Shown in pieces: positions 19,379-42,833 of a DNA stretch of 42,833 nucleotides. Position 1 is the stretch's first letter. Each line of letters opens with the position of its first letter. The DNA lies in IMG/VR virus record IMGVR_UViG_3300042476_000400, positions 1 to 42,833 of that record. One strand, written 5' to 3'. Position numbers and translations under genes: made by a program. The notes beneath the pieces were generated by a model, which was not told where the DNA came from, did not search any database, and saw only the letters and a program-made list of their open reading frames with translations. This stretch comes from a virus.

Positions 19379-19804
19379 TTATCCAATGTGCATTCTGACT
19401 ACGGTTCCTTTTCCGTCGGTGAACAGGTTGAGCCTGCTGTCGGATATGTCCTGTCCGCAGCGTGTCACATCGAAGCGATGGTGAACCCCATGCTGCCTGC
19501 ATATACAGGCAGCTTCAGCAGCAAGGACTGGACTCCTCAAGGTCAGCTCTTCGCAGATAGTGGTGGCAATCCTTCGCTCGATGTCCCTTCGTAATTCCCA
19601 GTCAGATATGCTCGCTGGCTTGATATTCACCTTCTCCAAAGCCGCCGCCGGATAAATCTGCACGGAGCCTTTCTCCGTGCTGCTCTCCACAGCGTAGCCT
19701 TCGGGAGTCAACTCGGTGGAGTAGATGCCGACGACGGCACCGCTCCACTGTGAGCCTTTGGTTTTGCGAACGAGGTCGCCGAGTTTGAATTTGGGAGGAT
19801 TCAT
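19379..19804 (-). CDS. R67/DfrB-type dihydrofolate reductase domain with C-terminal extension
   Basis: A 141-residue protein from ATG 19804 (ATGA overlap). Residues 10-60 align without gaps to the SH3-like core of R67 (DfrB) dihydrofolate reductase. The R67 active-site residues Lys32, Gln67, Ile68 and Tyr69 correspond to K14, Q49, I50 and Y51; W20 matches Trp38, and [10 protein letters not shown] is identical over ten residues. R67 is a homotetramer using NADPH to reduce dihydrofolate and resists trimethoprim. The ~80-residue C-terminal half ([20 protein letters not shown] onward, with a [12 protein letters not shown] segment) is not part of R67. No thymidylate synthase is seen here. Enzymatic activity is inferred; the family may include non-enzymatic homologues. 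Confidence 0.82.
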
Positions 19805-20205
19805 AGAAGTTCTTCCGGCCATGCGGCGATGATGGCGGCTTTTTGTTTCAAGCAAACTGCGAAGCCATTGATCTCTAGCTCTTCCACAAAATCAATCGCC
19901 GCAATCGTCGCCCTCCAGCCAGCCTCGGCTGGACCGGCGCAGGAGGCGATGAAGGCGGCGTCATTGCCAGAGGTTTCAATGCATCCCGGAAGCCCAGTTT
20001 GCGCTCCATCGCTAGACAGCCAAACGCTTCCTGCCGCGCCGATGAATGTCGTCTCGCCTGCCCACTCAAATTCCCCCTCTTCTTTTGCAGCTTTCAGGTC
20101 GTCATAAATTTGTGCAACCCACCTCCCCCGCGTCCGCTTCTCAGCCAACGCCAGCAGTTCAACGCATCGGGCGCGAATCCGTTTCAGATGTTCCCGTCTA
20201 TCCAT
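19801..20205 (-). CDS. conserved phage hypothetical protein (DAAFIASC type)
   Basis: A 134-residue protein: [19 protein letters not shown] at the N-terminus and [26 protein letters not shown] in the middle. This matches small phage proteins with a TPGPW-like then DAAFI pattern, related to the segment in the 17872 gene. Function unknown. It overlaps the DfrB-like gene start. Confidence 0.7.
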
Positions 20206-20587: not shown

Positions 20588-20842
20588 GGCTTTCCTCGCC
20601 TCCCTGAAAGATTTTCTTTTCAAGTCCCACGCATCGCGCTGCTTTTTGAGCTTCCCTGCGCGGCCATTCCAGAAGCGACCCCCGAGTGTTTCGTAGAAAA
20701 TCGCTCTATCCAAGGAGGTGATTCTGCGGTCGGCGTGGCGGAGTTTTTTGAAGATGGCCGAGCGAGCACGACTCGAACGTGCGCTTCCCGCACTTCTGCG
20801 GGAGTTCTGTCCACCTAAACTATCACTCGGGAAGGTTGTCAT
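20567..20842 (-). CDS. hypothetical basic protein read through a tRNA-like element
   Basis: A 91-residue protein. ATG 20842 overlaps the HNH stop in ATGA, so coupled translation is plausible. The first ~30 residues (Ser/Arg-rich) are encoded by the tRNA-like element at 20755-20829. The rest is a basic helix (LDRAIFYETLGGRFWNGRAG, then KLKKQRDAWDLKRKSFREA). Either the element belongs to the gene, or the true start is later. Function unknown. Confidence 0.45.
   Translation of the reverse strand: MTTFPSDSLGGQNSRRSAGSARSSRARSAIFKKLRHADRRITSLDRAIFYETLGGRFWNGRAGKLKKQRDAWDLKRKSFREARKALTNPTP
20755..20829 (-). tRNA. tRNA-like element, isotype undetermined
   Basis: Reading the minus strand: acceptor CGAGTGA/TCGCTCG (7 bp), TA, D stem GTTT/GAAC around a GG-containing loop, anticodon stem CCCGC/GCGGG, T arm GCACG-TTCGAGT-CGTGC, discriminator G and an encoded CCA. 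All four arms pair. The anticodon loop is AGAAGT, only 6 nt and without U33, so no anticodon can be read with confidence (GAA is one option). It may be a decayed tRNA or a tRNA-like structure. It lies inside a coding frame on the same strand. Confidence 0.6.
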
Positions 20843-28483: not shown

Positions 28484-30202
28484 ATGGCCGTATCTGCGAA
28501 TATCTTCAGCAAGTGCTCTCCGGCACTTGGAACCAACATCCAGGCTTGCGGGTCGGTGACGATCTGCAACGCCTCCGTCATCACCGCCGACAACATCGAA
28601 GAGGTCTTCGCTGATGCGGACGGCAACTTCCGCATCATGGATGCTCTGGCTGGTTTCCAGCTTGAGGTCAAGGCGTGCGGTGCCTCGCAGGTCGGAATGT
28701 TCGACTTCCTGATGGCGAACCGTGTGAACTGGTCGAAGCGCGTGGACGCCGTGAAGTCCGCTGGCCTTGCCAGGCTGCGCCCGTTCGTGATCGCTCGCCG
28801 CAAGTGGCCGATCAACAACAAGTATTGGAACGTCAGCGGCGGTCAGGCGTCCGGTGGCAACTGGCGCGTGGACGTGTCCAGCCCGACCGGCGTTCCGTTC
28901 GATGTGCGCTCCTTCATCGCCGATGAGGAAGTGTATATCCAGTCGGCGGGCGATGGCGGCAGCCTCTCCGAAACCCAGTGGAAGATTGTCAGCGCCACCG
29001 CGTTGACCTCGACCTCTGGCCGGTTGGTCCTGTCCTCGCTGAACTCCGGCTCCTACTTGGATGCCGACAAGCTCACCAGTCCCGTGACTGGCTGGCTGAT
29101 TCGCGGCATCAACAACAAGGATGTCACGGAGAGCTTCTGCAATCAGCCTCCGAGCTACATCACCAACTCTGATTACCCGGCGTGGTATCAGACGATGCGT
29201 TTCACCACCTGCAAGAGTGAACTCTACGACCAGTATCGTGAGGCGCTGCTCGCTGGCGGAAACACCTACTTCCGCGATTTCCAAGACCTCCCCGAGGCGG
29301 AAGTCAACCGGCAGGAGGGTCTGGACGCTCAAAACCGCATGGCCTACGCCATGTTCTACAACAAGCCGCTGGTGAACCAAACGATGTCCACCTACGACCA
29401 GTTGGAGGACATCACCACGGCTGCGAGCCAGTTCCTCGACATCCCGACCAGCTCGCGCTGCGTCGGCAAGCGGGCGAACATGGTGGGCATCCTCGAACAG
29501 CTCGCCGAGTGCGACCGTGTGGCGGACCTTCAGGGTGGCCAGCTCATCCTGAGCGACCTGTTCCGCACGCTCTATCTCATGCTCCGCTCGCGCCAGGCGA
29601 ACGGTGACACGAGCAACATGATCGACCTGTTCATGGACACCTCGACGGCGAGCCGGTTCCATCAGGCGATGGTTACTTACTACAGCGCCCAGAACAGCGG
29701 CCTGCTCCGGGTCAACATGAACATGGGTGGCGATTACAGCATCACCAACCCTGCGCAGATCAAGAAGGCCGAGTTCGGCTTCGCTTATCGCAGTTACCCG
29801 CTGGAGTGGCCGCAGGGCTTGGTCATCAACGTCGTCACGCACTTCTTCTTCGACGACCTCGTGACGCAGGCGGCTGCCATCGGCAACACCTCGCTCGGGC
29901 GGAACATCTGGATTCTGGACTTTGCGGGCATCTACCCGTTCACCGTCTCCACGGATCGGACCGTCACCAAGACCAATCCCAATGCGTTGCAGGGGATTGA
30001 TGCCACCTACGCCTGCACTCCGAAAATCTACACGGAGCAGAAGACGCTCAACAGCTTCACGATGGGTATGCACGTTGAGTGCCCCCGTGCGAGCATCGTG
30101 TTGGAGAACGTCGGCGAGGAAGTCCCTGACGCCACTACGGATGACGGCAGCAGCGTCTATCCGAACGATGGCTCCGGTGTGACCACCACGCCTGCGGACT
30201 AA
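28484..30202 (+). CDS. major capsid protein
   Basis: A 572-residue protein in the capsid position, followed directly by a strong terminator as for an abundantly made product. Conserved HK97 motifs are not obvious by eye. The pattern of aromatic/beta-rich segments (PAWYQTMRFTTCKSELYDQ, FAYRSYPLEWPQGLVIN, IWILDFAGIYPF) fits a HK97-like fold or its podovirus relatives. It is Cys-rich for a capsid protein. The last ~25 residues (TTDDGSS, ending VTTTPAD) are Thr/Ser/Asp/Gly-rich and probably surface-exposed; they resemble the tails of neighbouring virion-type proteins. Confidence 0.78.
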   Translation: MAVSANIFSKCSPALGTNIQACGSVTICNASVITADNIEEVFADADGNFRIMDALAGFQLEVKACGASQVGMFDFLMANRVNWSKRVDAVKSAGLARLRPFVIARRKWPINNKYWNVSGGQASGGNWRVDVSSPTGVPFDVRSFIADEEVYIQSAGDGGSLSETQWKIVSATALTSTSGRLVLSSLNSGSYLDADKLTSPVTGWLIRGINNKDVTESFCNQPPSYITNSDYPAWYQTMRFTTCKSELYDQYREALLAGGNTYFRDFQDLPEAEVNRQEGLDAQNRMAYAMFYNKPLVNQTMSTYDQLEDITTAASQFLDIPTSSRCVGKRANMVGILEQLAECDRVADLQGGQLILSDLFRTLYLMLRSRQANGDTSNMIDLFMDTSTASRFHQAMVTYYSAQNSGLLRVNMNMGGDYSITNPAQIKKAEFGFAYRSYPLEWPQGLVINVVTHFFFDDLVTQAAAIGNTSLGRNIWILDFAGIYPFTVSTDRTVTKTNPNALQGIDATYACTPKIYTEQKTLNSFTMGMHVECPRASIVLENVGEEVPDATTDDGSSVYPNDGSGVTTTPAD

Positions 30203-30777: not shown

Positions 30778-33255
30778 GTGCCCTACACCTACGCCAACCT
30801 GAAGTCCGAGTTGCAGCCGCTCCTGTGGCCACAGGGAGAGGCGGAGAACCTGATTCTCCCGCACAACAAGTTCTTCACGGAAGCGTTGATTGAGATCCAG
30901 CGTTGGGCGGACTGCTACCAATACAACAACAGCCAGCTCTACCGGGCCTGCTCGCGGTTCTACACCTGCGGGCTGAACGTGATGGAGGCTCCCGGTGCGT
31001 TGGTTGCTGGAAGCATCGCCAACACGATTCGCCGCCTGTCCGTCATTGACCAGATTGATCCGGCAACACAGCTTGAATCGGCGGCGGCCCCTGACCAGTG
31101 GTGTTCTCGCATCTACTACAAGCAGGTTCCCCATTGCGAGCTACTCAAGTATCAGCAGAAGGTGGCTTCCTGTTTGAGCTGTGGTGGCAACGCCAACTTC
31201 AGCGGTCTGTTCGGGTTCCCCGGCGCTTCGTGCCAGAAGGGGAACTTTCCGACGCCGACGGACGCGGAGTATCTCGCCAGCCCTGCGCTCCCGTTGGGAC
31301 ATCACTACCAGCCGCAAGCCTCCACGGACTCCCGATGGGGACGCTCCCGGCATGGTGTCTGGTCGCTGGAGCGGGGCCGCATTTACCTCGCGCCGTGGCT
31401 CCAGAGCACCGAGACGGTGATTGTGGAGTGGGACGGCATCAAAGCTGACTGGGATTCTCTCGACCTCGTGGTGGACAACGCACAGCTCAAGCGAGCGGTG
31501 CGCTACTACGTTCTCTGGAATCACCTGAAGGACTACGAGCGGGACGACGTGGCGGCAGCGCAGGCGGAGAAGGATTGGATCATGGCTCTGCGCGGCCTCA
31601 TGCGGGATTGCCGAGAGGAAACCCGTGTGCGTGGCTGCGAGGGCAGCAATGCGCGGCAGGCGGACATTCGCATCAATGGAGATCCAGAGCCGATTCCAGC
31701 CACATTGCAGTATCCCGGCAACGGTGGGAGCGCTGGCGCTGGCGGTTCAAATCCGGGTGGAGCTGGAGGGGGAGTCCCTGGATGTGTTCCGGTCGAAGCT
31801 CCTGAATTTGATCCGCCGTCCGGTGCGATTGTTACCTATCCAACGTGGGTCACGATCACGTCTGCAACAGATGGTGCGGAGATTTACTTCACCACGGATG
31901 GATCAGAGCCAACCCGCGCAAGCAATCGTTACAGCGGTCCTTTCCAGCTTGCTTCTGGATACAGCATCAACGCTGTCGCATTCCTTGGCGTCTGCCCGTC
32001 TCCTGAGAACTCGTCGGACTACATCTCGGCGCAGGACTACCTGAATCCTCCTGACGATCCTACCAAGACCGGCTCTGCTCCAGTGCTGACAGTTCTTTGC
32101 ACTGATACAGACCGAGCTGGACGTTGGTATGTGTTCACCCCGGATGGTAGCAAGGACATCAACTGGAGGCTTGAGTTTGCCTTCAACGCTGGCTCCACAG
32201 TAAAGCGGCTGGAGATGTATGAGACGGATGAGAATGGCGTCTGGTCAAGTGGCCGAGCGTGGGCTACTCAGTATCTCATCAACGGCAATTTTGCCACATT
32301 CCCGCTGGTGCTTGATGACGGTGGGCAGATTAACCATGCTTATACAACAAACCTGAACGAGCCGGGTGACGACGCTCATTCGTGGGCTATGTTTGGAGAG
32401 TCGGTTGGTCGTCCGAGCACTGGTTCTCACTACAAGCTGATAATCTTTCTTGAGGACGGAACGAAGTTTTACACCACTCACAGCATTGAGTGCGTAGGGG
32501 AAGACCCGGAAGAGGGGTGCATTGAGCTTGAGGCAAACGATCAAGGGGAAGTTTCATACACTTTCAACATTGGAACAAAGCTTAGCCCTGATGGAACGAT
32601 TGTTCCGGCGGTGGTTGTAACGGGAACATGGGTGGTGTTCGTTCTGGATGGGCAGTGGGTTCTTGGCAGGGTTGAAGCAGTTGATTCCAACGGCAATAGC
32701 GTGACACTTGATCCGTCTTCGTTCGTTCCCGGCGTGAGGTATGCCCCTGGAGATGTGGTTGTTCTTTCCGGTGTATCCGCAGGTGGAGTTACTGGCAGTG
32801 GTGGATGCGTGATTCTCCCACCGATACCGCCGACTACAACCACGACAACAACTGGAGGTAGCACTACAACTACAACTGCGGCACCTGATTTGTGCTGCGA
32901 TGATCTTCCGAACAGCCTTATTATTGGTGGCGGTTACGGATCACTTCCAGCATCCGGTGGATTCAGTTTTGGCCTTGGGGCTGTCTGCACAAAGCAGGTT
33001 GTTGGCGGTGAGGTTCAATACGTCGGAACCGTGAGCGAAATTGTCACATACGCCAATGCGCCGGGATATTTTGGTGATGCGTCTTTTGTGTTCAGGAGAA
33101 ATTCTGAAACGTGCATTTGGACGTTGGAGCAAACTCTGAACAGTCCTTTGGATGGAAGTGTAACTGAGTCTGGAACAAGTTCTCAAAACTGGTGTCAGGA
33201 GCGGCAGCTGGAGAGTGTTGTCGTGTTTGGCGGATTTACAGGAGTCCAGATATGA
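30778..33255 (+). CDS. connector-like virion protein with CHB_HEX_C-type Ig-like domain
   Basis: An 825-residue chimera from GTG 30778. Residues 1-310 look like a head-tail connector/adaptor (LKSELQPLLWPQG, EALIEIQRWADCYQ) with a Cys-rich block near 150. A Gly-rich linker (about 315-340) leads to a chitobiase-C/CHB_HEX_C_1-type domain (about 340-408: IYFTTDGSEPT, YSGPFQL). Further beta-rich segments follow, then a Thr-rich linker (TTTTTTTGGSTTTTT, about 690) and a C-terminal beta domain. Such outer domains decorate virions and may bind glycans. The Thr run is a candidate O-glycosylation site. Role of the N-terminal part is inferred from position. Confidence 0.68.
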   Translation: MPYTYANLKSELQPLLWPQGEAENLILPHNKFFTEALIEIQRWADCYQYNNSQLYRACSRFYTCGLNVMEAPGALVAGSIANTIRRLSVIDQIDPATQLESAAAPDQWCSRIYYKQVPHCELLKYQQKVASCLSCGGNANFSGLFGFPGASCQKGNFPTPTDAEYLASPALPLGHHYQPQASTDSRWGRSRHGVWSLERGRIYLAPWLQSTETVIVEWDGIKADWDSLDLVVDNAQLKRAVRYYVLWNHLKDYERDDVAAAQAEKDWIMALRGLMRDCREETRVRGCEGSNARQADIRINGDPEPIPATLQYPGNGGSAGAGGSNPGGAGGGVPGCVPVEAPEFDPPSGAIVTYPTWVTITSATDGAEIYFTTDGSEPTRASNRYSGPFQLASGYSINAVAFLGVCPSPENSSDYISAQDYLNPPDDPTKTGSAPVLTVLCTDTDRAGRWYVFTPDGSKDINWRLEFAFNAGSTVKRLEMYETDENGVWSSGRAWATQYLINGNFATFPLVLDDGGQINHAYTTNLNEPGDDAHSWAMFGESVGRPSTGSHYKLIIFLEDGTKFYTTHSIECVGEDPEEGCIELEANDQGEVSYTFNIGTKLSPDGTIVPAVVVTGTWVVFVLDGQWVLGRVEAVDSNGNSVTLDPSSFVPGVRYAPGDVVVLSGVSAGGVTGSGGCVILPPIPPTTTTTTTGGSTTTTTAAPDLCCDDLPNSLIIGGGYGSLPASGGFSFGLGAVCTKQVVGGEVQYVGTVSEIVTYANAPGYFGDASFVFRRNSETCIWTLEQTLNSPLDGSVTESGTSSQNWCQERQLESVVVFGGFTGVQI

Positions 33256-33281: not shown

Positions 33282-33428
33282 ATGCGCTTCGACCGAATCA
33301 TAGAAACTCCCTGCGAGACGCCGGGGACTAGCGTGACAACGACAACCGGCAGTGATTCAACGTCCACCACCGGAAGCGGTGCCACTAGCACAACCGCTGG
33401 TGACTCGACAACGACTACGCCTGCATGA
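33282..33428 (+). CDS. 48-residue Thr/Ser-rich mucin-like protein
   Basis: ATG 33282 to TGA 33428, overlapping the next gene in ATGA. After MRFDRIIETPCETPG the chain is 16 Thr and 7 Ser among its last 36 residues, with Gly/Asp/Ala spacers (TTTTGSDSTSTTGSG). There is no signal peptide and no SD. The composition resembles an extended mucin-type linker, as in the Thr run of the preceding gene. It lies at the start of the glycosyltransferase block, so it is a prime candidate acceptor. It was too short for ordinary gene calling. Confidence 0.6.
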   Translation: MRFDRIIETPCETPGTSVTTTTGSDSTSTTGSGATSTTAGDSTTTTPA

Positions 33429-33733
33429 ACATCTCCTTCGTCCCATTCCACGGCTTCTGGGTGCCTATCATTGGAGTGGACGAGCAGGAAACGCTGAACG
33501 AATGCGCTGATTGCCACGACCAGTTCGACCTGCTACAGATTCGGCTAAACCAAGACGGGTGGTTTAGATGCGACCGATGCACAGCCCGGAACGACAAGTA
33601 TCTGACAGAACAACATGCGCTTCGTAATCAAGTATCCCACCAGGGGCAGGCCGGGGCAGTTCATCCGGCAGGTGCAGAAGTATCGGGCATTCCTTTCCCG
33701 CCGCAATCCAGTCCGCTTTGTGGTGTCCATTGA
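33425..33733 (+). CDS. zinc-ribbon hypothetical protein
   Basis: A 102-residue protein starting in ATGA. The first ~60 residues hold CADCHDQF and CDRCTARN, a two-pair zinc ribbon. The last ~40 residues lie in a 119-nt overlap with the next gene in another frame and look unstructured. The N-terminal ribbon is well supported; the exact 3' part is less certain. Function unknown. Confidence 0.6.
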   Translation: MNISFVPFHGFWVPIIGVDEQETLNECADCHDQFDLLQIRLNQDGWFRCDRCTARNDKYLTEQHALRNQVSHQGQAGAVHPAGAEVSGIPFPPQSSPLCGVH

Positions 33734-34271
33734 CGAGGACGACCGGACGATGCACGCCGCCGACGTGCAGGCGTTTATCTCCCGGCAGCGCGACATGAAG
33801 GTGTATGTCGGCGCATCGAAGGGGAAGATTGAGGCTGTCAACGCGAACTTCGACAAGCTGGGCGACTACGACGTGCTCATCCTCGCCTCCGACGACATGG
33901 TGCCACAGGTGCGCAACTACGATGTCACCATTGAGCAGTTGATGATGAAGCACTTCCCAAATCTGGACGGCTGCCTGCACTTTGATGACGGCCTTAACAA
34001 GCATGGCCTGAACACGATGCCGATAGCGGGGAAGAAGCTGATCGACTCGTGGGGTTACATCTACCACCCCTCGTATCGTTCGGAGTTCTGCGATAACGAG
34101 TTCCAAGATGTGACTGAGAGGGATGGTAAATCGGTCAAGTCTCCGCTCTGCCTGTTCAAGCACGAGTGGGCAAAGACAGGCAAGGATGCCACATTCATTC
34201 GCAACAGTAATTTGTGGTGTGTGGACAAACCGAACTACGAGCGGAGGAAGGCTGCTGGCTTCCCCAAATGA
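33615..34271 (+). CDS. GT-A-type glycosyltransferase
   Basis: A 218-residue protein with GT-A features: KYPTRGRPGQF and FVVSIDEDDRTM near the N-terminus, then DVLILASDDMVPQ (SDD at 92-94), the metal/nucleotide-binding acidic motif. ATG 33615 lies inside the zinc-ribbon gene. First transferase of the island. Donor and acceptor sugar cannot be told. It ends in an ATGA overlap with the next transferase. Confidence 0.75.
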   Translation: MRFVIKYPTRGRPGQFIRQVQKYRAFLSRRNPVRFVVSIDEDDRTMHAADVQAFISRQRDMKVYVGASKGKIEAVNANFDKLGDYDVLILASDDMVPQVRNYDVTIEQLMMKHFPNLDGCLHFDDGLNKHGLNTMPIAGKKLIDSWGYIYHPSYRSEFCDNEFQDVTERDGKSVKSPLCLFKHEWAKTGKDATFIRNSNLWCVDKPNYERRKAAGFPK

Positions 34272-34825
34272 GCCTATTCGTTCTCAGCATCCTCATTTGC
34301 ACCCTGCCAGAGCGTGCGATGTTTCTGCGTCGCCTGATGGCATCACTTGAAAAGCAGGCTCGCGGATTCCCAGTCGAAATCCTGACCGACAATCGCGGCA
34401 AGAACATCTCCATCGGAGCCAAGCGGAACGCACTTATGAAGCGGGCCAGAGGGGAATACGTCGCATTTGTGGATGATGACGACGAGGTGGCAGCGAATTA
34501 CGTTCAGCTCGTCCTGCAAGCCCTCCGCTCAAAGCCGGACTGCGCCGAGCTGCGTGGCGAGATTACCACTGACGGGAAGAACCCAAAGCCGTTTATCCAC
34601 ACTGTCACCTGCCAGAAGTGGCACGAGAAGGATGGCGTCTATTGGAGGATGCCAAACCACCTGAATGCGATTCGCCTCGATCTGGCACTTCAAGCTGGAT
34701 TCCCCGAGAAGAGCTTTGGGGAAGACCACGACTTCAGCAAGCGTGTTCAGCCCTTCTTGAAGACCCAGGGAGACATCCCGCAGACGATCTACTACTATCG
34801 CTATCGAAGTAAGAAACGCGCTTGA
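34268..34825 (+). CDS. GT2-type glycosyltransferase
   Basis: A 185-residue protein, ATG 34268 (ATGA). VLSILICTLPERAMFL starts the nucleotide-binding fold. GEYVAFVDDDDEV (DDDD at 69-72) is the DxD-like metal site, and GEDHDFSKRV (about 155) matches the acceptor-side ED region of GT2. Short for GT2, so a minimal catalytic domain. The stop codon TGA lies in the -35 of the next promoter. Confidence 0.8.
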   Translation: MSLFVLSILICTLPERAMFLRRLMASLEKQARGFPVEILTDNRGKNISIGAKRNALMKRARGEYVAFVDDDDEVAANYVQLVLQALRSKPDCAELRGEITTDGKNPKPFIHTVTCQKWHEKDGVYWRMPNHLNAIRLDLALQAGFPEKSFGEDHDFSKRVQPFLKTQGDIPQTIYYYRYRSKKRA

Positions 34826-34850
34826 CACCCGCCAAAGCTGGCGGTTAGAT
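34822..34850 (+). promoter_or_regulatory. strong sigma70-like promoter with spacer palindrome
   Basis: TTGACA (34822-34827), 17-bp spacer, TTAGAT (34845-34850). The spacer holds CCGCCA-AAGC-TGGCGG (34829-34844), a hairpin/operator-like inverted repeat. The TGA of TTGACA is the stop of the upstream transferase. Leader to ATG 34980 is about 120 nt. Confidence 0.72.
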
Positions 34851-34855
34851 GGAAC

Positions 34856-34891
34856 GCACCGGGCAGTCCATCTGACAAGCCTGCCCGGTGC
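34856..34891 (+). other. leader stem-loop
   Basis: GCACCGGGCAG (34856-34866) and CTGCCCGGTGC (34881-34891) pair perfectly over 11 bp with a 14-nt loop, just after the predicted start of transcription. No T-tract follows, so it is more likely a stability or regulatory hairpin than a terminator. The rest of the 155-bp gap holds only a 13-codon frame. Confidence 0.65.
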
Positions 34892-34979
34892 TAACATCAA
34901 CCAACATGCGCGAATGATTGACGCTGAAGAAACCCTTTCAGGAATGTCCCTCTAAGTCAATCAGCACTCGGCATCCTCA

Positions 34980-35777
34980 ATGAAAAACGTAGTCTCGTAT
35001 TCGCTGTTCTGGGCCGGAAAAGACGATCACGCCAAGCTCTACACGAACGGCCTTCGGGCCACTGTTCTCGCGCACCACAGCATCTATCCCGGCTGGGAGC
35101 TGCGTATCCACCACGACGGCACGCTGCATCTCGACAAGGATTCCGAGCGGCTGATTGCTTTTGCAGAACTCGGGCTGGTGAAGCTCGTGCATGTGAAGCC
35201 TGCGACGCGCATCTGTGAAGCGATGCTGTGGCGGATGCTGCCAGTGTTCGACCAGAGCGTTGGCTACACGCTTTGCCGCGACCTTGACTCGCTGGTGATT
35301 CCACGTGAGCGGCTGATGACGGAGGACTTCATCAAGAGCGGTGCCGGGATGCACTGCATCAACGACCACCCGCAGCATGGGGCTCCCATCATGGGTGGAA
35401 TGTGCTCTTTCAAGGGCGACATCTTCCGGCGTCTCACCGACAAGGATTCCTTCGAGCGGATGATTGCCGGGTTCTCACTCGACCGGCACGGGGACGATCA
35501 GGATTTGCTGATGACGCGCATCTGGCCGGTCATGCAGCATTCGCTCTGCGAGCATCGCATCTCGGGGCGTGAACAGACCCCCGGCGCGATGGCCAGCTTC
35601 AAATACACCAGCACGAAGGAGTCCGAAATCAAGGACATGACGGATGCGGTGCGAGATCGTGCCGACATGCTCATTCCGTTCCTCGGCGTTCCGGGGTTCG
35701 ACTACAAGCGCGTCGAGGAGTTCTTTCTGAAAGAGGGTCATCCGCAGATTTCAAAGCTGGTCAATTCCATCCCGTGA
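34980..35777 (+). CDS. glycosyltransferase (GT-A, DxD)
   Basis: A 265-residue protein. YTLCRDLDSLVIPRER holds a DxD motif (D101, D103). GDDQDLLMTRIW (about 170) is the downstream acidic/aromatic region. The arrangement resembles GT8/GT32-like sugar transferases that put a sugar on from a nucleotide donor. It starts a second transcript of the island, behind the promoter at 34822. Donor unknown. Confidence 0.72.
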   Translation: MKNVVSYSLFWAGKDDHAKLYTNGLRATVLAHHSIYPGWELRIHHDGTLHLDKDSERLIAFAELGLVKLVHVKPATRICEAMLWRMLPVFDQSVGYTLCRDLDSLVIPRERLMTEDFIKSGAGMHCINDHPQHGAPIMGGMCSFKGDIFRRLTDKDSFERMIAGFSLDRHGDDQDLLMTRIWPVMQHSLCEHRISGREQTPGAMASFKYTSTKESEIKDMTDAVRDRADMLIPFLGVPGFDYKRVEEFFLKEGHPQISKLVNSIP

Positions 35778-36460
35778 ACACGATTTTCAACTACAACTCC
35801 ATCAGCCTTGCCACACTGGGGCGGCTGAACGCATTTGCCACGATGGCTTACTCCACGGTGCAAGGCATCCAGCACACCTACCTTGCGGCTCGTGACATCG
35901 TGCAGCGCGGCATCCCCGGAGCCTTCGTGGAGTGCGGGGTGGCGAACGGCGCACAGGTTTGCTCGATGGCGGAAGCCAATGGTAAGTTCGCCCGCGAGTT
36001 CCACCTGTTCGATTCCTTCCAAGGCATCCCGATGGCTGGCCCGAACGACCACGACCAACCTGGCATTGGCAAGTTCGTGGTGGACCAGAACCTCCCTCTG
36101 CGCGAACGCTTGGTGTCCAGCGGAATCAGCTCCAGCTCAGTGCAGAACGTGAAGAACAATCTCGCCAAGCACGGCTTCGGGGCTGGCTACAAGTTCCATG
36201 TCGGATGGTTTCAGGACACGGTGCCGGTCGTGGAGACTGGTCCGATTGCGCTGCTCCGACTGGATGGCGACCTCTACGAATCCACGAAGGTCTGCCTTGA
36301 GCATCTCTTCCCGAAGATTGTTCCGGGTGGTGCAATGATTCTGGACGACTACCCGCTTCCCGGTTCCCGCAAAGCGTGGGAGGAATACTGCGAGCAGCAC
36401 AAGTTGAACCTCACGCCGATCATCGCCTGTGACACGGGCGCAGCCTACTTCCAACTGTGA
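35774..36460 (+). CDS. TylF/MycF-family O-methyltransferase
   Basis: A 228-residue protein starting at GTG 35774 (GTGA overlap). FVECGVANGAQVCSMAEA is the SAM-binding motif I. HLFDSFQGIPM matches the conserved TylF/macrocin O-methyltransferase segment, and IALLRLDGDLYESTK with MILDDYP supplies the metal-binding acids. Known members methylate sugar hydroxyls. Among glycosyltransferases, the likely substrate is a glycan unit of the island's product. Confidence 0.85.
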   Translation: MNTIFNYNSISLATLGRLNAFATMAYSTVQGIQHTYLAARDIVQRGIPGAFVECGVANGAQVCSMAEANGKFAREFHLFDSFQGIPMAGPNDHDQPGIGKFVVDQNLPLRERLVSSGISSSSVQNVKNNLAKHGFGAGYKFHVGWFQDTVPVVETGPIALLRLDGDLYESTKVCLEHLFPKIVPGGAMILDDYPLPGSRKAWEEYCEQHKLNLTPIIACDTGAAYFQL

Positions 36461-37311
36461 GCATCGCCGTCGTCTATCTTGCTTCTCCGAGGGACTGGTC
36501 ACACCAAAAGTGGACCCGGTTGGAGTGCCTGCGGGCTTCATTGAAGCTGCTGCGGAAGTTTGCTCCACCGTGGCCGGTCATCATTTTCCACGAGAACTAT
36601 CGCAAGGAAGATGAGGAGTTTCTTCGTGCAGTCTATCCTGACATCACGTTCTCGCAGGTGGACTTCTCCACGCACATTCACCGCTACAAGCCGGGTTATC
36701 GTGACGCTCGGGTTGGAACCTACGGCTACGGGATGATGTGCCGCTTCTTCAGCGGGGTGATGCAGGTTCATCCGCTGCTGAATCCCTACACGCACTACAT
36801 CCGGCTGGACGATGACTCCTACATCCAGAGCCCGATCACGCCTGAGATTGTTCAGCGAATCCTCTCCAACGACTACACCTATCGCTGCACCTTCGAGGAC
36901 TACTCGCCATCGCTGTGGGATTACTCCATTGAGTTCATGCGGAAGAACGGTCTGCCAGTGGACCCGAAGCTGCGCACCATCGCAACGGCTCCCTACACCA
37001 ACTACCACTCCAGCAGCATCCGGCTCTGGAAGCATCACGTCGTTCGGGAATACCTGCGGGGAATCGAGGAGCAAGACGGCTGTATCACGAAGGGGTGGGA
37101 TGACGCCATCATTCAGGGTGTGATTGCCAAGATGATCTGCCCCGTGCTCGGCTACGGTGTTCATCTGGAAAACGGCTTCTGCTATCGCCATAACCAGCAC
37201 TGCTCGCATCGCCCTGGGCATGGCCATTCAGAGCTGTGCTTGGATGGAAACGACGAGCACCACAAGGGCGACATTAACTACCAGTGGGGTCCACCGAAAT
37301 CAATATGCTGA
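36457..37311 (+). CDS. GT15-like (KRE2/MNT1) mannosyltransferase-type protein
   Basis: A 284-residue protein from GTG 36457. HENYRKEDEEFLR, CRFFSGVMQVHPLLNPYTHYIRLDDDSYI (acidic motif 117-120) and YTNYHSSSI followed by GWDDAII (214-217) follow the block order of GT15 enzymes, fungal alpha-1,2-mannosyltransferases that act on protein-linked glycans. The FFSG and HPLL spacing is the strongest link. It is shorter than fungal enzymes and lacks a membrane anchor. Donor GDP-mannose is family knowledge, not visible here. Confidence 0.68.
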   Translation: MSIAVVYLASPRDWSHQKWTRLECLRASLKLLRKFAPPWPVIIFHENYRKEDEEFLRAVYPDITFSQVDFSTHIHRYKPGYRDARVGTYGYGMMCRFFSGVMQVHPLLNPYTHYIRLDDDSYIQSPITPEIVQRILSNDYTYRCTFEDYSPSLWDYSIEFMRKNGLPVDPKLRTIATAPYTNYHSSSIRLWKHHVVREYLRGIEEQDGCITKGWDDAIIQGVIAKMICPVLGYGVHLENGFCYRHNQHCSHRPGHGHSELCLDGNDEHHKGDINYQWGPPKSIC

Positions 37312-38027
37312 CCAGAGTGATAGCGGTGACGCAGCTTGGCCAAGGCGTTCATTCAAAGTTCGCCAAGCGGAACCTCCATGTCAGGAACACGCTGATTCCA
37401 TCTCTCGCTCAAATCGGACTTTCAGCGGAAATCTTCCCAGCCATAATCGGTTCATCCGTGAAGGTGAGCGGTGGAGCCGCGCTGCATGATTCGCTGGAGA
37501 TTCCGCTTGGGGAAGGCTGCATTGGGAACCTGCTTTCAAACTACGAGCTTTGGAAGTTGAGTGTCACCACCGGCCAATCGGTGCTCATCCTTGAGGATGA
37601 CGCCATCCTGCCGTCGCAGAACGCACAGTTTGTGGCTGATGCGATTCGGTCCTTTCAGCAGTCCCACCAAGATCAGCCGGACATCCTCTACCTGCTTTCG
37701 CAGTCACCATTCATCAAGGACACCTTCAAGCGGTATGCTCCGAGCGAGCTGAAGGCGATAAACAACAGCATCTCCCGGCTGATTCGCACCAGCGACCTCG
37801 CCTGCACGGCAGCTTACATGGTGACACCTTTCTCGGCTCGCCGCCTGATGGAGCGTATCACAAAGTCGAAGACGATTCCGACGGACGGCTACGTTCACAC
37901 CGCGCAGATGGATGGCGCTATTGGAATCGTTGTTCAAACGGACCCAACTAAGGGGTTTATGCTGAACGAGAACTGGGCGGAGTGGAATCACAAACACGAT
38001 CCTTCGGTGAAGATGGAGCCGTCGTGA
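37305..38027 (+). CDS. GT25-like glycosyltransferase
   Basis: A 240-residue protein; ATG 37305 overlaps the upstream stop by 7 nt. LGEGCIGNLLSNYELWKL (about 69) and SVLILEDDAIL (LEDD 96-99) are the two hallmark blocks of GT25, the LPS/LOS galactosyl-type and procollagen glycosyltransferase family. FMLNENWAEWN near the C-terminus fits its later part. It probably extends the glycan made by the island. Confidence 0.82.
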   Translation: MLTRVIAVTQLGQGVHSKFAKRNLHVRNTLIPSLAQIGLSAEIFPAIIGSSVKVSGGAALHDSLEIPLGEGCIGNLLSNYELWKLSVTTGQSVLILEDDAILPSQNAQFVADAIRSFQQSHQDQPDILYLLSQSPFIKDTFKRYAPSELKAINNSISRLIRTSDLACTAAYMVTPFSARRLMERITKSKTIPTDGYVHTAQMDGAIGIVVQTDPTKGFMLNENWAEWNHKHDPSVKMEPS

Positions 38028-38740
38028 AAATCTCCTGCGCCACACTCACCTACGCCCGCACGGGGATGCTGGAGGAAGCCATCGAGAGCTTTCTCCGGCA
38101 GGACTATCCCAACAAGGAGATGGTGATCTACAACACCTACGAGCGGCAACATCTGGTGTGCAACTCTCCCGGCGTGCGCGTCATCAATGCCTACTCAAGA
38201 CCGGCCACCCTCGGTGAAACCCGGAACAAGTGCATCGAGAAGTGCGAAGGGGAGTTCATCCTCAACCTCGATGACGACGACATCATCCTGCCGGGATACC
38301 TCTCATGGCTGGTATCCAGGCTGGAAGGCCGGGATTGGATTCGGCAGGACCGCCGCTTCTGCCTGCGCAACGGGAGGATTGTAGGGATGGCCGAGCAAGC
38401 CACCAACCAGTCGCTTTTCAGGAAGTCGGCTTGGGCGGCTGTCGGAGGGTTCCCCCACGAGAACTCCGGGGAGGACAAGGGTTTTAGAAGACTGCTGGCT
38501 AATCGTCATGGTGGAGCGCGGGTGGAATGCCGCCCGCAAGACGCTGGATTCCTTTACCGCTGGCATTCCAACAACATCTCCCGCACGGGACCAGACCGAC
38601 CGGGGCAGCTCAATGGAATGCAGACCACCAAGCGTCTCGTAATGAAGGCCATGCCGAAGCGGGGCAAGGTAACGCTGCATCCTCGCTGGGGAGTGGACTA
38701 CTGGCAGCTCACACGGGAATATCTCAAAGCGCACCCATGA
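38024..38740 (+). CDS. GT2-type glycosyltransferase
   Basis: A 238-residue protein from GTG 38024 (GTGA). ISCATLTYARTGMLEEAIESFLRQDYPNK is a typical GT2 start, FILNLDDDDIIL holds the metal site (DDDD 83-86) and GEDKGFRRLL the ED-like acceptor motif. C-terminal YRWHSNNISRTG is common in phage GT2 proteins. Confidence 0.87.
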   Translation: MKISCATLTYARTGMLEEAIESFLRQDYPNKEMVIYNTYERQHLVCNSPGVRVINAYSRPATLGETRNKCIEKCEGEFILNLDDDDIILPGYLSWLVSRLEGRDWIRQDRRFCLRNGRIVGMAEQATNQSLFRKSAWAAVGGFPHENSGEDKGFRRLLANRHGGARVECRPQDAGFLYRWHSNNISRTGPDRPGQLNGMQTTKRLVMKAMPKRGKVTLHPRWGVDYWQLTREYLKAHP

Positions 38741-39264
38741 AAAGCGACGTGGATATTCAACCCTTATCGCATCCCGTTCTCGACGCCTGCTGCGGAAGCC
38801 GGATGATGTGGATGGACAAGGCTGATAGCCGGGTGACGTTCGTGGACAGGAGGGATTGCGACTACACAATCGCTCCCGACCGAGCCTACCCGAGCGGCAC
38901 CACCATTCGCGTGCGACCCGACGTGGTGGCGGACTTCACCGCGCTGCCGTTTCCAGACAACTCGTTCTGGCACATTGTCTTCGACCCACCCCACATCATC
39001 CGCAATGCGGAACTTGGCACGGTGACGAAGAAATACGGCTGCCTGAACGGCGAGTGGAAGGAGATGCTACGGATCGGGTTTGCTGAATGCTTCCGAGTCC
39101 TAAAGCCGAACGGAACGCTGATTTTTAAGTGGTGCGAAACGCAGATTCCACTGAAGGACATTCTGGCGCTTACACCGGAGAAGCCGCTCTACGGCCACAA
39201 AGGGGGCCAGAAATCAGTCACCCACTGGGTCGCATTTCTAAAGCCTGACAAATCCAACCCATGA
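38737..39264 (+). CDS. class I SAM-dependent methyltransferase
   Basis: A 175-residue protein, ATG 38737 (ATGA). LDACCGSRMMW near the N-terminus, FPDNSFWHIVFDPPH (DPPH catalytic-type motif) and FRVLKPNGTLIFKWCE define a common phage methyltransferase family. YGHKGGQKSVTHWVAFLKP closes it. The substrate is unknown; DNA or a glycan/small molecule are both possible. A close paralogue lies at 39469-40011. Confidence 0.85.
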   Translation: MKSDVDIQPLSHPVLDACCGSRMMWMDKADSRVTFVDRRDCDYTIAPDRAYPSGTTIRVRPDVVADFTALPFPDNSFWHIVFDPPHIIRNAELGTVTKKYGCLNGEWKEMLRIGFAECFRVLKPNGTLIFKWCETQIPLKDILALTPEKPLYGHKGGQKSVTHWVAFLKPDKSNP

Positions 39265-39461
39265 ACCCACTCACCCTGCAATCCACCGTCGCAGAAGTTC
39301 TGGCCGAGATAGACCGTGAGCACCAGCAGATAGTGTCCGCGCTTGGGGAGTTGACCGGCGAGTGGGATGCCGAGCAGAAGGAACGCTACGAGGAGCTGGT
39401 GGAGGAGCGTCTGGAGATGGTGGCTGCGAGGGATTACCTTTTGAGGAGGTGCAAGCAATGA
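39261..39461 (+). CDS. small coiled-coil protein
   Basis: A 66-residue acidic protein between two methyltransferase paralogues, ATGA overlap. VAEVLAEIDREHQQIVSAL and YEELVEERLEMVAARDYLLRR are helical heptads. It may form a dimer or adaptor. Function unknown. Confidence 0.65.
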   Translation: MNPLTLQSTVAEVLAEIDREHQQIVSALGELTGEWDAEQKERYEELVEERLEMVAARDYLLRRCKQ

Positions 39462-39468
39462 GTGGATT

Positions 39469-40011
39469 ATGAATACTGTAAAAGACACCGTAAAATGTGC
39501 GGCGGCTGCTTTAGATTCATTCCCGCCCGTGCTCGACGCCTGCTGCGGAAGCCGGATGTTTTGGTTCAACAAGCAAGATGACCGGACGCTGTTCGTGGAC
39601 AAGCGCCGCGAGACGCATCCAATAGACATTGGAACTCCTGGCACAATCGGACGAAGCCCAATCGTGGTAGATCCTGACATGCTTGCCGACTTCACAAGTC
39701 TTCCGTTCCCAGATGACACGTTCGCACTCGTCGTGTTTGACCCTCCGCACATTGAGCGGACTGCCGCGAAAGGGCTGCTGACAAAGAAGTATGGGCATCT
39801 GACAGGTGACTGGCGCGAAACTCTACGCCGAGGCTTTGCGGAGTGTTTTCGTGTGCTCAAGCCGCATGGAACGCTCATCTTCAAATGGGCTGAATCGGAC
39901 TATCCAGTATCCGAAGTGCTGTCCTTAACCTGTGAGCAACCGCTATTTGGACACAAATCCGGAAAGCAGAGCGCGACGCACTGGATTGCTTTCTTGAAGC
40001 CGAACGCATGA
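39469..40011 (+). CDS. class I SAM-dependent methyltransferase (paralogue)
   Basis: A 180-residue protein sharing the whole core of the 38737 gene: LDACCGSRMFWF, LVVFDPPH, KYGHLTGDW, FRVLKPHGTLIFKW and LFGHKSGKQSATHWIAFLKP. A divergent 15-residue N-terminus and a different middle set them apart. The pair probably arose by duplication, then diverged. Substrate unknown. Confidence 0.86.
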   Translation: MNTVKDTVKCAAAALDSFPPVLDACCGSRMFWFNKQDDRTLFVDKRRETHPIDIGTPGTIGRSPIVVDPDMLADFTSLPFPDDTFALVVFDPPHIERTAAKGLLTKKYGHLTGDWRETLRRGFAECFRVLKPHGTLIFKWAESDYPVSEVLSLTCEQPLFGHKSGKQSATHWIAFLKPNA

Positions 40012-40946
40012 TCTCCGTCTGCATCACCTGCCGGAACGACCAAGAGGAAACGAACGCCACGATTCGCTCTATCAGGGAGACGGCTGGCGACCTTCCTGAA
40101 TTGGTTGTGCTGGATGACGGCTCAGACAAGCCACTCCAACTGGATGACAAGAACGTAGTCTTCAGGACCGTCCACGGGAGAGCTGGGGTGGGACCAGCCC
40201 GCCATATCGCCGCCACGATGGCCAGCCGGAAGCATCTGCTCATCATAGACGCCCACATGCGATTTGAGCCGGGATGGTATGAGAAGGCTTTGGAGAGGTT
40301 GGAGTCCAGCGACGGCACCCTCTGGGGCTGCACCTGCGTCCACCTGAACGCGGAGAACATGCAGATGACCCTGGAGAGCAAGACCTACAACGGGGCTACC
40401 TTGAACTTCTTCGGGCCGAACAAGAACCAGCCGCAGAAGATGCAGTTCATCGAGCCGGTCTGGATTCCCCATGCGCAGCATCCCAAGAACAACGACGTGA
40501 TACCTTGCGTCCTCGGAGCTGCCTACTTTATGCCCCGCAGCCTGTTCTTCAAGATTGGCGGCATGAGGATGCTCCGCCACTGGGGTTCCTCAGAGCCTTA
40601 CCTCTCGCTGAAAGTCTGGCTGGCTGGTGGTGAATGCAGGCAGATGACGGATGTGCGGATAGGACACCAGTTCAGGACCGCAACCACCTACACCTACAAG
40701 ATTGCCGCCTCGCTCTACAACAAGTTGATGATTGCGGCCACGCTCTTCCCGGAAGACGCCACGGCGTTCATGGTGGCGAAGATGCGCCAGCACGCGCTCC
40801 CAGCGCAGGACTTCAAGATTGCGATGGACCTGTTCCGCAACGACCAGTCCAACATTGAGATTGAGCGGGTCTTCGCGGAGAGGGTCTTCACAAGGTCTTT
40901 GGAGGAGTATCTGGAGCGGTTTGGAATGCCGAGGTTTTGGACTTGA
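40008..40946 (+). CDS. GT27-like polypeptide GalNAc-transferase-type glycosyltransferase
   Basis: A 312-residue GT-A protein, ATG 40008 (ATGA). LVVLDDGSD (33-40) is the sugar-nucleotide motif. HLLIIDAHMRFEPGW carries D81-A-H83, matching the GT27 D-x-H motif rather than DxD. HWGSSEPYLSLKVWLAGGE and then RIGHQFRTATTYTYK (about 191-231) follow the GT27 W-G-x-E-N...S-x-R-x-W-x-C-G-G...G-H-x-F-R pattern closely. GT27 enzymes start mucin-type O-glycosylation by adding GalNAc to Thr/Ser. There is no membrane anchor or ricin lectin domain. Substrate is inferred from family and from nearby Thr-rich proteins. Related GT2 enzymes could share part of this. Confidence 0.8.
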   Translation: MISVCITCRNDQEETNATIRSIRETAGDLPELVVLDDGSDKPLQLDDKNVVFRTVHGRAGVGPARHIAATMASRKHLLIIDAHMRFEPGWYEKALERLESSDGTLWGCTCVHLNAENMQMTLESKTYNGATLNFFGPNKNQPQKMQFIEPVWIPHAQHPKNNDVIPCVLGAAYFMPRSLFFKIGGMRMLRHWGSSEPYLSLKVWLAGGECRQMTDVRIGHQFRTATTYTYKIAASLYNKLMIAATLFPEDATAFMVAKMRQHALPAQDFKIAMDLFRNDQSNIEIERVFAERVFTRSLEEYLERFGMPRFWT

Positions 40947-40980: not shown

Positions 40981-41211
40981 ATGTCGCTACCGCTGCCATC
41001 TGAATTCGAGGCACTCGTCCCCGCCGATCCGAACAACCCCACCTGCGATGAGCTGCGTGCGTTGTTGGACCGCGAGACTGGCTTGCAGGCGTTGCTGTAT
41101 CGGTGGTGGTCCTACTGGTTCAATGAGGATGGCACGCTGACCGAGGATTTTACTGAGCAAATCTGCAATGCTGGCTGCGGAAGCAGTGGCTCAAGCTCCA
41201 CCCCACCATGA
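40981..41211 (+). CDS. small virion-type protein, paralogue of the next gene's N-terminus
   Basis: A 76-residue protein, ATG 40981 with AGGAGG upstream. Residues 1-66 align with the N-terminal domain of the next gene: LPLPSEFEALV / CPIPSDFQDLI, two conserved Cys, then FTEQICNAGCG / FRTKICDTGCG. It ends in SSGSSSTPP, a Ser/Thr-rich tail. It looks like an isolated attachment module of a fibre protein. Confidence 0.72.
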   Translation: MSLPLPSEFEALVPADPNNPTCDELRALLDRETGLQALLYRWWSYWFNEDGTLTEDFTEQICNAGCGSSGSSSTPP

Positions 41212-41987
41212 GTTGCCCCATACCGTCGGACTTTCAGGACTTGATTATTGACCAGAACTCCTCGGTGTGCGAGGCGTTGAGCAAGCTCGGGCCAGCCTCC
41301 CAGCTTTGGTATCAAGCCTACTCCTGCATCTACAAGAACAACCTTGAGTTCACCGAGGAGTTTCGCACGAAGATTTGCGATACCGGCTGCGGTGGCGGTG
41401 GTGGCGGGACATCCACATCCACTACTCAGGCAGGTTCCGGCGAGCAGCCTTACGACGCTGCTGGGTCGTATGAGTTCACGGTTCCTGATGGGGTTACGGA
41501 GCTGACTGTGGTTGTGGTTGGCGGTGGTGGTGGCGGTGGTGGGCGTGGAAGTCCGTCCCTTTTCCCAACCCGAGTATGCTCTGGTGGCGGTTCCGGCGAG
41601 AAGCGAGTGCATACTTTTGCGGTCGTTCCGTCTGCGACGGTCAACGTCACTGTTGGAGGTGGCGGAACTCAAGACAGTGTGACAGGTGATGGCTCAAGCG
41701 GTGGAGCTTCCGGCGTTTTTTACAGTGCTGTCAATATCGTTGCTAACGGTGGTGGTGGTGGTCAAAACGAAGACTGCACAACTGCCCCATTCGCAGGTGG
41801 CGCTGGTGGTAGTGGTGGTAGCGGTGGAACTGGAACCAGCGGAAATGCTGGCGGTCCATCCACTGTGGCTTGCGGAAGTGGTGCTGGTGGCGCATCGGTT
41901 GGTCTTTCCGCTGGCGCTGGTTCAGCCGGAAGCATGGCTGACAACTCGCACCCTGGATTCGCTGGCGCAGTTCTGATCACTTGGTAA
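41208..41987 (+). CDS. glycine-rich tail-fibre-like protein
   Basis: A 259-residue protein (ATGA start). An N-terminal ~60-residue Cys-containing domain is shared with the preceding protein. A Gly run and Thr/Ser linker (GTSTSTTQAGSG) follow. The rest is a Gly-rich domain: SYEFTVPDGVTELTVVVVGG, then long poly-Gly stretches (VGGGGTQDS, ANGGGGGQNED), as in phage tail fibres with polyglycine-helix sandwiches. Such tips bind host surface glycans. Confidence 0.8.
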   Translation: MSCPIPSDFQDLIIDQNSSVCEALSKLGPASQLWYQAYSCIYKNNLEFTEEFRTKICDTGCGGGGGGTSTSTTQAGSGEQPYDAAGSYEFTVPDGVTELTVVVVGGGGGGGGRGSPSLFPTRVCSGGGSGEKRVHTFAVVPSATVNVTVGGGGTQDSVTGDGSSGGASGVFYSAVNIVANGGGGGQNEDCTTAPFAGGAGGSGGSGGTGTSGNAGGPSTVACGSGAGGASVGLSAGAGSAGSMADNSHPGFAGAVLITW

Positions 41988-42833
41988 TGTCCACCACCCC
42001 CTACAAGTCAATCATCCTGCGGCCCCTCCTTGGGCCGATGGACTCGCGGTCCAACCCGGAGGACGCACCCGCGAACTCGTTCCGCTTCAAGCTGAACATG
42101 ATGGTGGACGACAACGACAAGCTCGCCCGAGGCTACGGATGGGAGCGGCTGCTCGCAGATGCCTCGCCTTACGTTAATCAAGACGCGCACGACCAAGGAG
42201 ACTGTTTCGACACTCTACCTCCTAGAGAGCCGATTACGCTGCTTTACGAGGCTACCAACAACCTCGGCATCCGCCGACTGATTCGCGGCCAGCAATCCTC
42301 CCTCGCCATCCTGAGCGAAAGCACTGGCGACTGGACTTACATCGGCAGGAACTTTGGGGGTGGAACAACTGCCACCCAGCTCAGGTGGTCGGTTGGTCAG
42401 GCTGGCAACACCATCATCTTCACGAACAACCGCGATAAGCCTCAAAGCTACTCCATCGGAACGCTTCCAGCAGGATGCGGCGATTCAGCCGTCAACGAGA
42501 TTGCCGCACTGAACACCTTAGACGTGACGCAAGCTGCGGTCGCTGCCAGCTTCAACGGCTGCATTTTCCTGATGAACGTGGTTCAGGAGGGAACTCGCAT
42601 CACGAGTCGCGTCCGGTGGAGTGGTGTGAACCGACCTCTGACTTGGGTTCCTGCTGATGACACCATAGCAAACTTCCAAGACCTCCCTTACACGGAGACA
42701 ATCCTTGCAGCGCGGGAGTTGCAGGGAAACCTCATCATCTTCACCGACAAAAGTATCTATCGGTGCTTCGTGAACGGCATTTCGTTCGGGTTTGCCCGCG
42801 TCTATACCGAGCCAACGAACCGGGACAAGTGCC
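41987..42833 (+). CDS. phage tail-type structural protein, 3'-truncated by window edge
   Basis: ATG 41987 overlaps the previous stop as TAATG; the frame is open to the last base (at least 282 residues). It begins MSTTPYKSIILRPLLGPMDSRSNPED. Later SRVRWSGVNRPLTWVP, DLPYTETILAARELQGNLIIFTD and SIYRCFV follow a pattern seen in phage tail/stopper-type structural proteins of the beta-propeller-like kind. Exact role is open. Confidence 0.72.
   Translation, partial: MSTTPYKSIILRPLLGPMDSRSNPEDAPANSFRFKLNMMVDDNDKLARGYGWERLLADASPYVNQDAHDQGDCFDTLPPREPITLLYEATNNLGIRRLIRGQQSSLAILSESTGDWTYIGRNFGGGTTATQLRWSVGQAGNTIIFTNNRDKPQSYSIGTLPAGCGDSAVNEIAALNTLDVTQAAVAASFNGCIFLMNVVQEGTRITSRVRWSGVNRPLTWVPADDTIANFQDLPYTETILAARELQGNLIIFTDKSIYRCFVNGISFGFARVYTEPTNRDKC

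Follow-up and report, generated by a model that had tools for sequence, protein, structure and literature searches.

We analysed a 42,833-base phage fragment, IMG/VR virus record IMGVR_UViG_3300042476_000400 (the window; all positions below are those of the window). Ten co-directional genes at 33615-40946, with a small threonine (Thr)-rich gene (33282) before them, form an island of seven glycosyltransferases (GTs; six with family support, GTc probable), one TylF and two phrog_954 methyltransferases, situated between predicted head genes upstream and virion genes from 40981 onwards. The best reading of this island, already proposed in the original prediction, is that of a phage-encoded locus for O-glycosylation of virion proteins; judging from the sequence, we consider this reading likely, and no other is better supported. 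With sugar-attaching enzymes among the genes of the particle, a GT27-like member and Thr-rich neighbours, the phage probably makes a variable sugar coat of its own.

The most notable point of the original prediction was the GT27-like call for GTg (40008..40946, +; PF00535 2.1e-13), a core gene and the predicted initiating enzyme, and this call was correct. PDB searches were made with the single GTg sequence or with profiles of 3 or 8 relatives. The best matches were polypeptide N-acetylgalactosamine (GalNAc)-transferases, the type that begins mucin-type sugar chains in animals, the best of all having an E-value of 5.1e-11 to GALNT2. The 8-sequence profile had 16 PDB matches at 5e-11 to 7e-5, 15 of which are named polypeptide GalNAc-transferases, while the remaining one, 8uhv, is named merely 'glycosyl transferase'. 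The next families after the GT27-type structures were GmaR (0.051) and GalT1 (0.83).

The alignment of GTg with GALNT covers residues 3-230, which is the entire GT-A domain. We observed that D81-A-H83 (a DxH motif) aligned with DSH of GALNT2, and H220, located in the GHQFR segment, aligned with the histidine of GALNT2 GHVFR; D81, H83 and H220 are invariant across eight sequences. In GALNT1, the DxH motif and the histidine have a metal role (PMC4202792). The replacement of DxD by DxH is a variation of the GT27 and GT60 families, which share O-glycosylation of serine (Ser) or Thr in polypeptides (PMC7185993, Taujale et al.). The best NCBIfam match, TIGR04283, spans residues 2-126 only. There was also a weak match (0.0028) to PF11397 'GlcNAc', which we take to be the GT60 family. 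A tblastn search of 50,697 phage records with GTg as the query gave nothing at 1e-5 and faint matches otherwise; gp2 of Tunturi_4 (L048 1567-2565; a 14-bit profile match), which is among them, hints that GTg-like enzymes may be more widespread. No phage GT27 enzyme was found in the literature searched, which does not prove absence.

Three more GTs belong to the core. GTa (33615..34271, +) matched phrog_14945 'glycosyltransferase' (9.7e-13) and had GT matches in Streptomyces phages. GTb (34268..34825, +) is a GT2 enzyme (PF00535 3.8e-8; 37% to Che8 gp108), as is GTf (38024..38740, +; PF00535 3.7e-11). The genes between GTb and GTf, which we call cassette A, are GTc (34980..35777, +), a TylF-type sugar O-methyltransferase (35774..36460, +; PF05711 4.9e-37), the GT15-like (Kre2/Mnt1) GTd (36457..37311, +; PF01793 3e-7, PDB 1s4n 3.5e-13) and the GT25 enzyme GTe (37305..38027, +; PF01755 3.6e-11). 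These matches bear out the earlier TylF, GT15-like and GT25-like labels. Seven glycosyltransferase-like genes had been proposed, and Pfam, PHROG or PDB matches agree with this for six; the seventh, GTc, had been labelled GT8/32-like, and that label did not stand, with no meaningful match in Pfam, NCBIfam or PDB searches. GTc is a probable GT-A glycosyltransferase in which an RDxDS motif is conserved, and a relative with 31% identity occurs in the GT island of another phage (L028); the pLDDT (predicted local distance difference test) value of its AlphaFold model was 41.7. The island of this other phage (L028 1277-12288) is large, contains GT, epimerase and FkbM genes, and follows a Mu-like portal gene.

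Start and stop codons overlap as ATGA or GTGA at GTa/GTb, GTc/TylF, TylF/GTd, GTe/GTf, GTf/MT1 and MT2/GTg (MT1 and MT2 being the two phrog_954 genes), and the GTd/GTe overlap is 7 bases long. Given these overlaps, the island looks like one tightly coupled operon. The ratio of nonsynonymous to synonymous changes (pN/pS) against a near relative was 0.00-0.14 for the island proteins GTb to GTg, indicating strong purifying selection. A zinc-ribbon-like open reading frame with two CxxC pairs (33425-33733, +), conserved in relatives, begins on the stop codon of the Thr-rich gene and has an out-of-frame overlap of ~119 bases with GTa.

Relatives of the phage were taken from viral contigs, and the presence of a gene was judged wherever a contig covers its position. 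All covering relatives have in common the Thr-rich gene, GTa and GTb on the upstream side and GTf and GTg on the downstream side, while the centre of the island is occupied by one of three kinds of cassette (A, B, C). Cassette A, i.e. GTc, TylF, GTd and GTe, is present in the window, L003, L010 and the 72-kb record G001 (where it has an additional FkbM methyltransferase) and, as far as the contigs reach, in L034 and L035. Cassette B, with a GT1-type gene (a weak assignment), a CAP59-type gene and a nucleotidyltransferase, was seen in L005/L039, L033 and L036. Cassette C, found in L032, has the 3' part of GTc together with a WbqC-type gene and further genes. For example, the capsid protein of L005 is 99% identical and its GTa and GTb are 97-99% identical to those of the window, yet L005 carries cassette B; with such near identity the cassette exchange is apparently recent. 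From this pattern we infer a fixed core plus a swappable outer glycan.

When capsid, portal and GTg alignments were used to scan viral sequences more widely, no members beyond this small clade came up. Pattern scans of bacterial genome contigs gave no relatives of the capsid protein or GTg, although distant kin could be missed with the few short patterns used. The ends of the 72-kb record (L016/G001) fall at the TylF-GTd junction, and the record is thus possibly a complete genome that is circularly permuted.

The likely acceptors of the glycan would be a C-terminal tail of the capsid protein, a Thr linker in the protein encoded at 30778-33255 and the 48-residue product of the small Thr-rich gene. 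Thr/Ser-rich segments had been noted directly upstream of the island, and they are real; the 48-residue gene actually lies inside the range 33282-40946 then assigned to the island. The Ser/Thr-rich tail of the capsid protein, ...DGSSVYPNDGSGVTTTPAD (about 30116-30199), persists in relatives with as little as 78% identity and ends in GVTTTPAD or GVTTTPQD. The Thr linker (32818-32886; PPIPPTTTTTTTGGSTTTTTAAP) has 12 Thr in 20 residues. In all relatives read, it divides a conserved body from a swapped C-terminal domain, and this domain is swapped independently of the cassette. Unrelated C-terminal domains follow the linker in the homologues from L003, L008, L033, L036 and L007. The 48-residue protein (33282..33428, +; 35% Thr), which consists of MRFDRIIETPCETP and a Thr/Ser tail, is encoded in all relatives covering the locus, and its pN/pS of 0.11-0.38 indicates purifying selection. 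All four Thr codons are used in its gene; for this reason we rejected the possibility that the Thr tracts are DNA microsatellites. GALNT enzymes prefer proline (Pro) at position +3. Thr with Pro at +3 is present in the linkers and capsid tails, and the Thr tails of the 40-residue forms of the small protein (L033, L036) are without it.

In the mechanism that we propose, GTg, as a retaining enzyme of GT27/GT60 type, would act in the cytoplasm, using a nucleotide sugar as donor and attaching the first sugar residue directly to Ser/Thr of virion proteins. A conserved core glycan would then be built by GTa, GTb and GTf, and the central cassette (here GTc, TylF, GTd and GTe) would make and cap a lineage-specific outer glycan. 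Cassettes would be exchanged via recombination in the conserved flanks. It is quite possible, though we would not call it probable, that this amounts to mucin-type O-glycosylation, in which a GT27/GT60-type starter acts directly on Thr-rich stalks and tails of the virion; this starter and the core would stay fixed and exchangeable cassettes would change the outer glycan, thus producing a serotype-switching coat.

Several observations weigh against virion O-glycosylation as described. GTg is only remotely homologous to GT27, and its AlphaFold model had a mean pLDDT of 41.8. The WGGEN segment, with which GALNT contacts the sugar, is replaced by WGSSE in GTg (WGVSD is a second form). The capsid and portal assignments rest mostly on position, and the precedent targets of virion glycosylation are capsid and tail-tube proteins without Thr tracts. 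Given WGSSE in place of WGGEN, the donor of GTg may be other than GalNAc. The protein ends ~80 residues past the GT-A domain, and no Pfam match to a C-terminal ricin-type lectin domain was found in it. With this absence and the altered segment, both donor and acceptor preferences of GTg may differ from those of GT27 enzymes, and we therefore describe GTg as 'GT27/GT60-type' and do not claim membership in GT27 proper.

One alternative overlaps with virion O-glycosylation: GTg would only resemble GT27 and would extend the glycan, another enzyme would initiate it at capsid C-termini, as in Che8 and Corndog, and the Thr tracts would be plain flexible linkers. Che8 gp110 and Corndog gp38 are reported as essential to capsid glycosylation (PMC12363180), the enzyme being GT25 in Che8 and Firecracker, and glycans are reported at C-termini (PMC12619734); the difference between the sugar-contact segments of GTg and GALNT2 fits this alternative as well. 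On the other hand, the GT25 enzyme GTe is missing from the members with cassette B, whereas GTg is always kept, and the DxH motif is the GT27/GT60 variation (PMC7185993). We regard this alternative as possible but rather doubtful.

It is unlikely that the island modifies the host surface, i.e. that it alters lipopolysaccharide, capsule or teichoic acid and thereby prevents superinfection or the binding of a receptor. GT2, GT25 and GT15 enzymes are also found in surface glycan pathways, and GTb and GTf had weak NCBIfam matches to polysaccharide GTs. However, the locus is embedded among virion genes, the type to which GTg belongs modifies polypeptides, and GTb and TylF have homologues in phages reported to glycosylate their virions. 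None of the proteins looks like a multi-pass membrane protein; one segment in GTb (1.75) and one in GTd (1.63) lie just over the hydropathy cut of 1.6, and we interpret both as strands buried in the GT-A fold. Far less probable still is glycosylation of hypermodified bases of phage DNA. Phages are known to glycosylate DNA with sets of GTs, and the window also encodes DNA methyltransferases and a DfrB-type reductase; yet no TAGT or other DNA-GT Pfam match was seen at E<=1 for any island protein, the lone DNA-GT match being that of GTf to the PHROG beta-glucosyl-HMC-alpha-glucosyltransferase (0.069). The GtrA flippase (PF04138) of gtr-type seroconversion clusters and PF00303 (thymidylate synthase/dCMP hydroxymethylase), a mark of DNA base glycosylation systems, were both absent from the window, the 72-kb G001 and G002 while the controls were positive, although these absences are of limited weight, with the window being a fragment and G001 possibly incomplete. 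The reductase is an R67/DfrB-type dihydrofolate reductase homologue (19379-19855, -; PF06442 E=1.1e-22).

The two class I methyltransferases named in the original prediction exist, but their membership in the glycan set did not hold. MT1 (38737..39264, +) and MT2 (39469..40011, +) matched phrog_954 at 6.7e-64 and 2.7e-65, respectively; this family is annotated as 'DNA methyltransferase', and relatives of MT2 occur in 234 isolate phage records from unrelated hosts. In relatives, the slot between GTf and GTg is variable and contains phrog_954 genes, a cytosine-5 DNA methylase-like gene (L033 7351-8004; a weak match, 0.0044), a gene that by eye resembles DnaQ, or no recognisable gene. Since relatives replace or omit the genes in this slot, MT1 and MT2 are most likely morons, probably acting on DNA. 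We rejected them as glycan enzymes, being optional, of the phrog_954 family and in a variable slot.

The gene set, its strand and its order between virion genes are as originally claimed. Upstream of the island are a predicted portal gene (24262; two portals match weakly, 0.017-0.019), a predicted scaffold gene (26985), the predicted major capsid protein (28484..30202, +), assigned without a family match from its size and its position after the portal and scaffold candidates, and a predicted head gene (30221). The portal and the capsid protein had zero matches among isolate phages. They are followed by the virion protein at 30778..33255 (+), which has Fn3_assoc/CHB_HEX_C_1 domains (PF13290 4e-16, PF13287 2.8e-13) and, to judge from its position, a neck/adaptor-like role. 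Downstream of the island we see a 76-residue fibre-like protein (40981..41211, +), paralogous to the N terminus of the product of the next gene, a Gly-rich tail-fibre-like protein (41208..41987, +; phrog_863 4.9e-6). The last gene (41981..42833, +), truncated by the window end, encodes a virion structural protein (phrog_3287 9e-22) that also matches phage stabilization proteins. An ARAGORN tRNA call at 20755-20829 (-) has an odd four-base anticodon (gaag) and is probably spurious.

Virion glycosylation has been shown in a few mycobacteriophages, with a small number of enzymes, and little is known of the origin of glycan diversity. The island described here is a compact soluble set with a candidate initiator, candidate acceptors and outer cassettes that are naturally exchanged in otherwise nearly identical phages. 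With such a set, one can ask by direct experiment which enzyme is the starter, which residue is the target and what a glycan change does. If GTg proves to be of GT27 type, its presence in a phage would be relevant to how mucin-type O-glycosylation arose, and this soluble enzyme could be convenient for O-glycoprotein production in E. coli.

Among known systems, Che8 (cluster F1) has a comparable set, gp108-gp110, located at the far end of the genome and not near virion genes, whereas the island here lies between virion genes. Che8 gp108 combines PF00535 and PF05711 in one chain, with the first half matching GTb (37%) and the second half matching TylF (28%); in the window these are separate genes, and the DxH enzyme GTg has no counterpart in the Che8 set. 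Che8 gp110 is a GT25 enzyme (PF01755 1.2e-7) of the same Pfam family as GTe, as is Firecracker gp36, which we presume, from its position and family, to correspond to Corndog gp38. The hhalign profile comparison of GTe with Che8 gp110 and Firecracker gp36 was not significant (probability 13%), and profile comparisons of GTg with Che8 gp109 and of GTd with gp110 gave no match. A GT2+TylF fusion was also seen in a Mycobacterium abscessus prophage (prophiGD57-2 gene 73; L047 5986-7260); it is annotated as N-acetylgalactosaminyltransferase and has no DxH, and further GTs lie near it, one resembling Che8 gp110.

In the cluster O phages Corndog and Firecracker, an O-methyltransferase and three GTs are located between the portal and capsid genes; these enzymes are said to modify the capsid and tail tube (PMC11600133). 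The isolate-phage matches of the TylF gene were all in mycobacteriophages of the Corndog/Firecracker kind, the homologue being Firecracker gp33. Thus, the window shares with cluster O a TylF-type methyltransferase and a GT25 enzyme among head genes. Conversely, cluster O has three GTs compared to seven here, no GT27-like or GT15-like enzyme was found in it, and its capsid and tail-tube proteins are without Thr tracts. In LittleE (Omegavirus), a GT set directly follows the capsid gene; gp15 is 37% identical to GTb, the set includes a kinase-like gene, and none of its enzymes checked was a DxH enzyme of the GTg kind. Tunturi_4 gp2, from a Tunturiibacter phage, is a GT with a DxH-like DNH motif and stands as a single gene between the terminase and portal genes. 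GTg is like the eukaryotic GT27 enzymes in that the whole GT-A domain can be aligned and that the DxH motif, the C-terminal histidine and the W-G and GHxFR segments are shared; unlike them, it has no lectin domain, has WGSSE for WGGEN and is not secretory. Calling the locus a distinct system, as in the original prediction, was too strong: sets of GTs with TylF exist among the head genes of cluster O, GT sets exist in other actinobacteriophages, and phage virion glycosylation islands are already known. What appears new here is the GT27/GT60-type candidate initiator, the exchangeable outer cassettes and the conserved mucin-like Thr-rich candidate acceptors.

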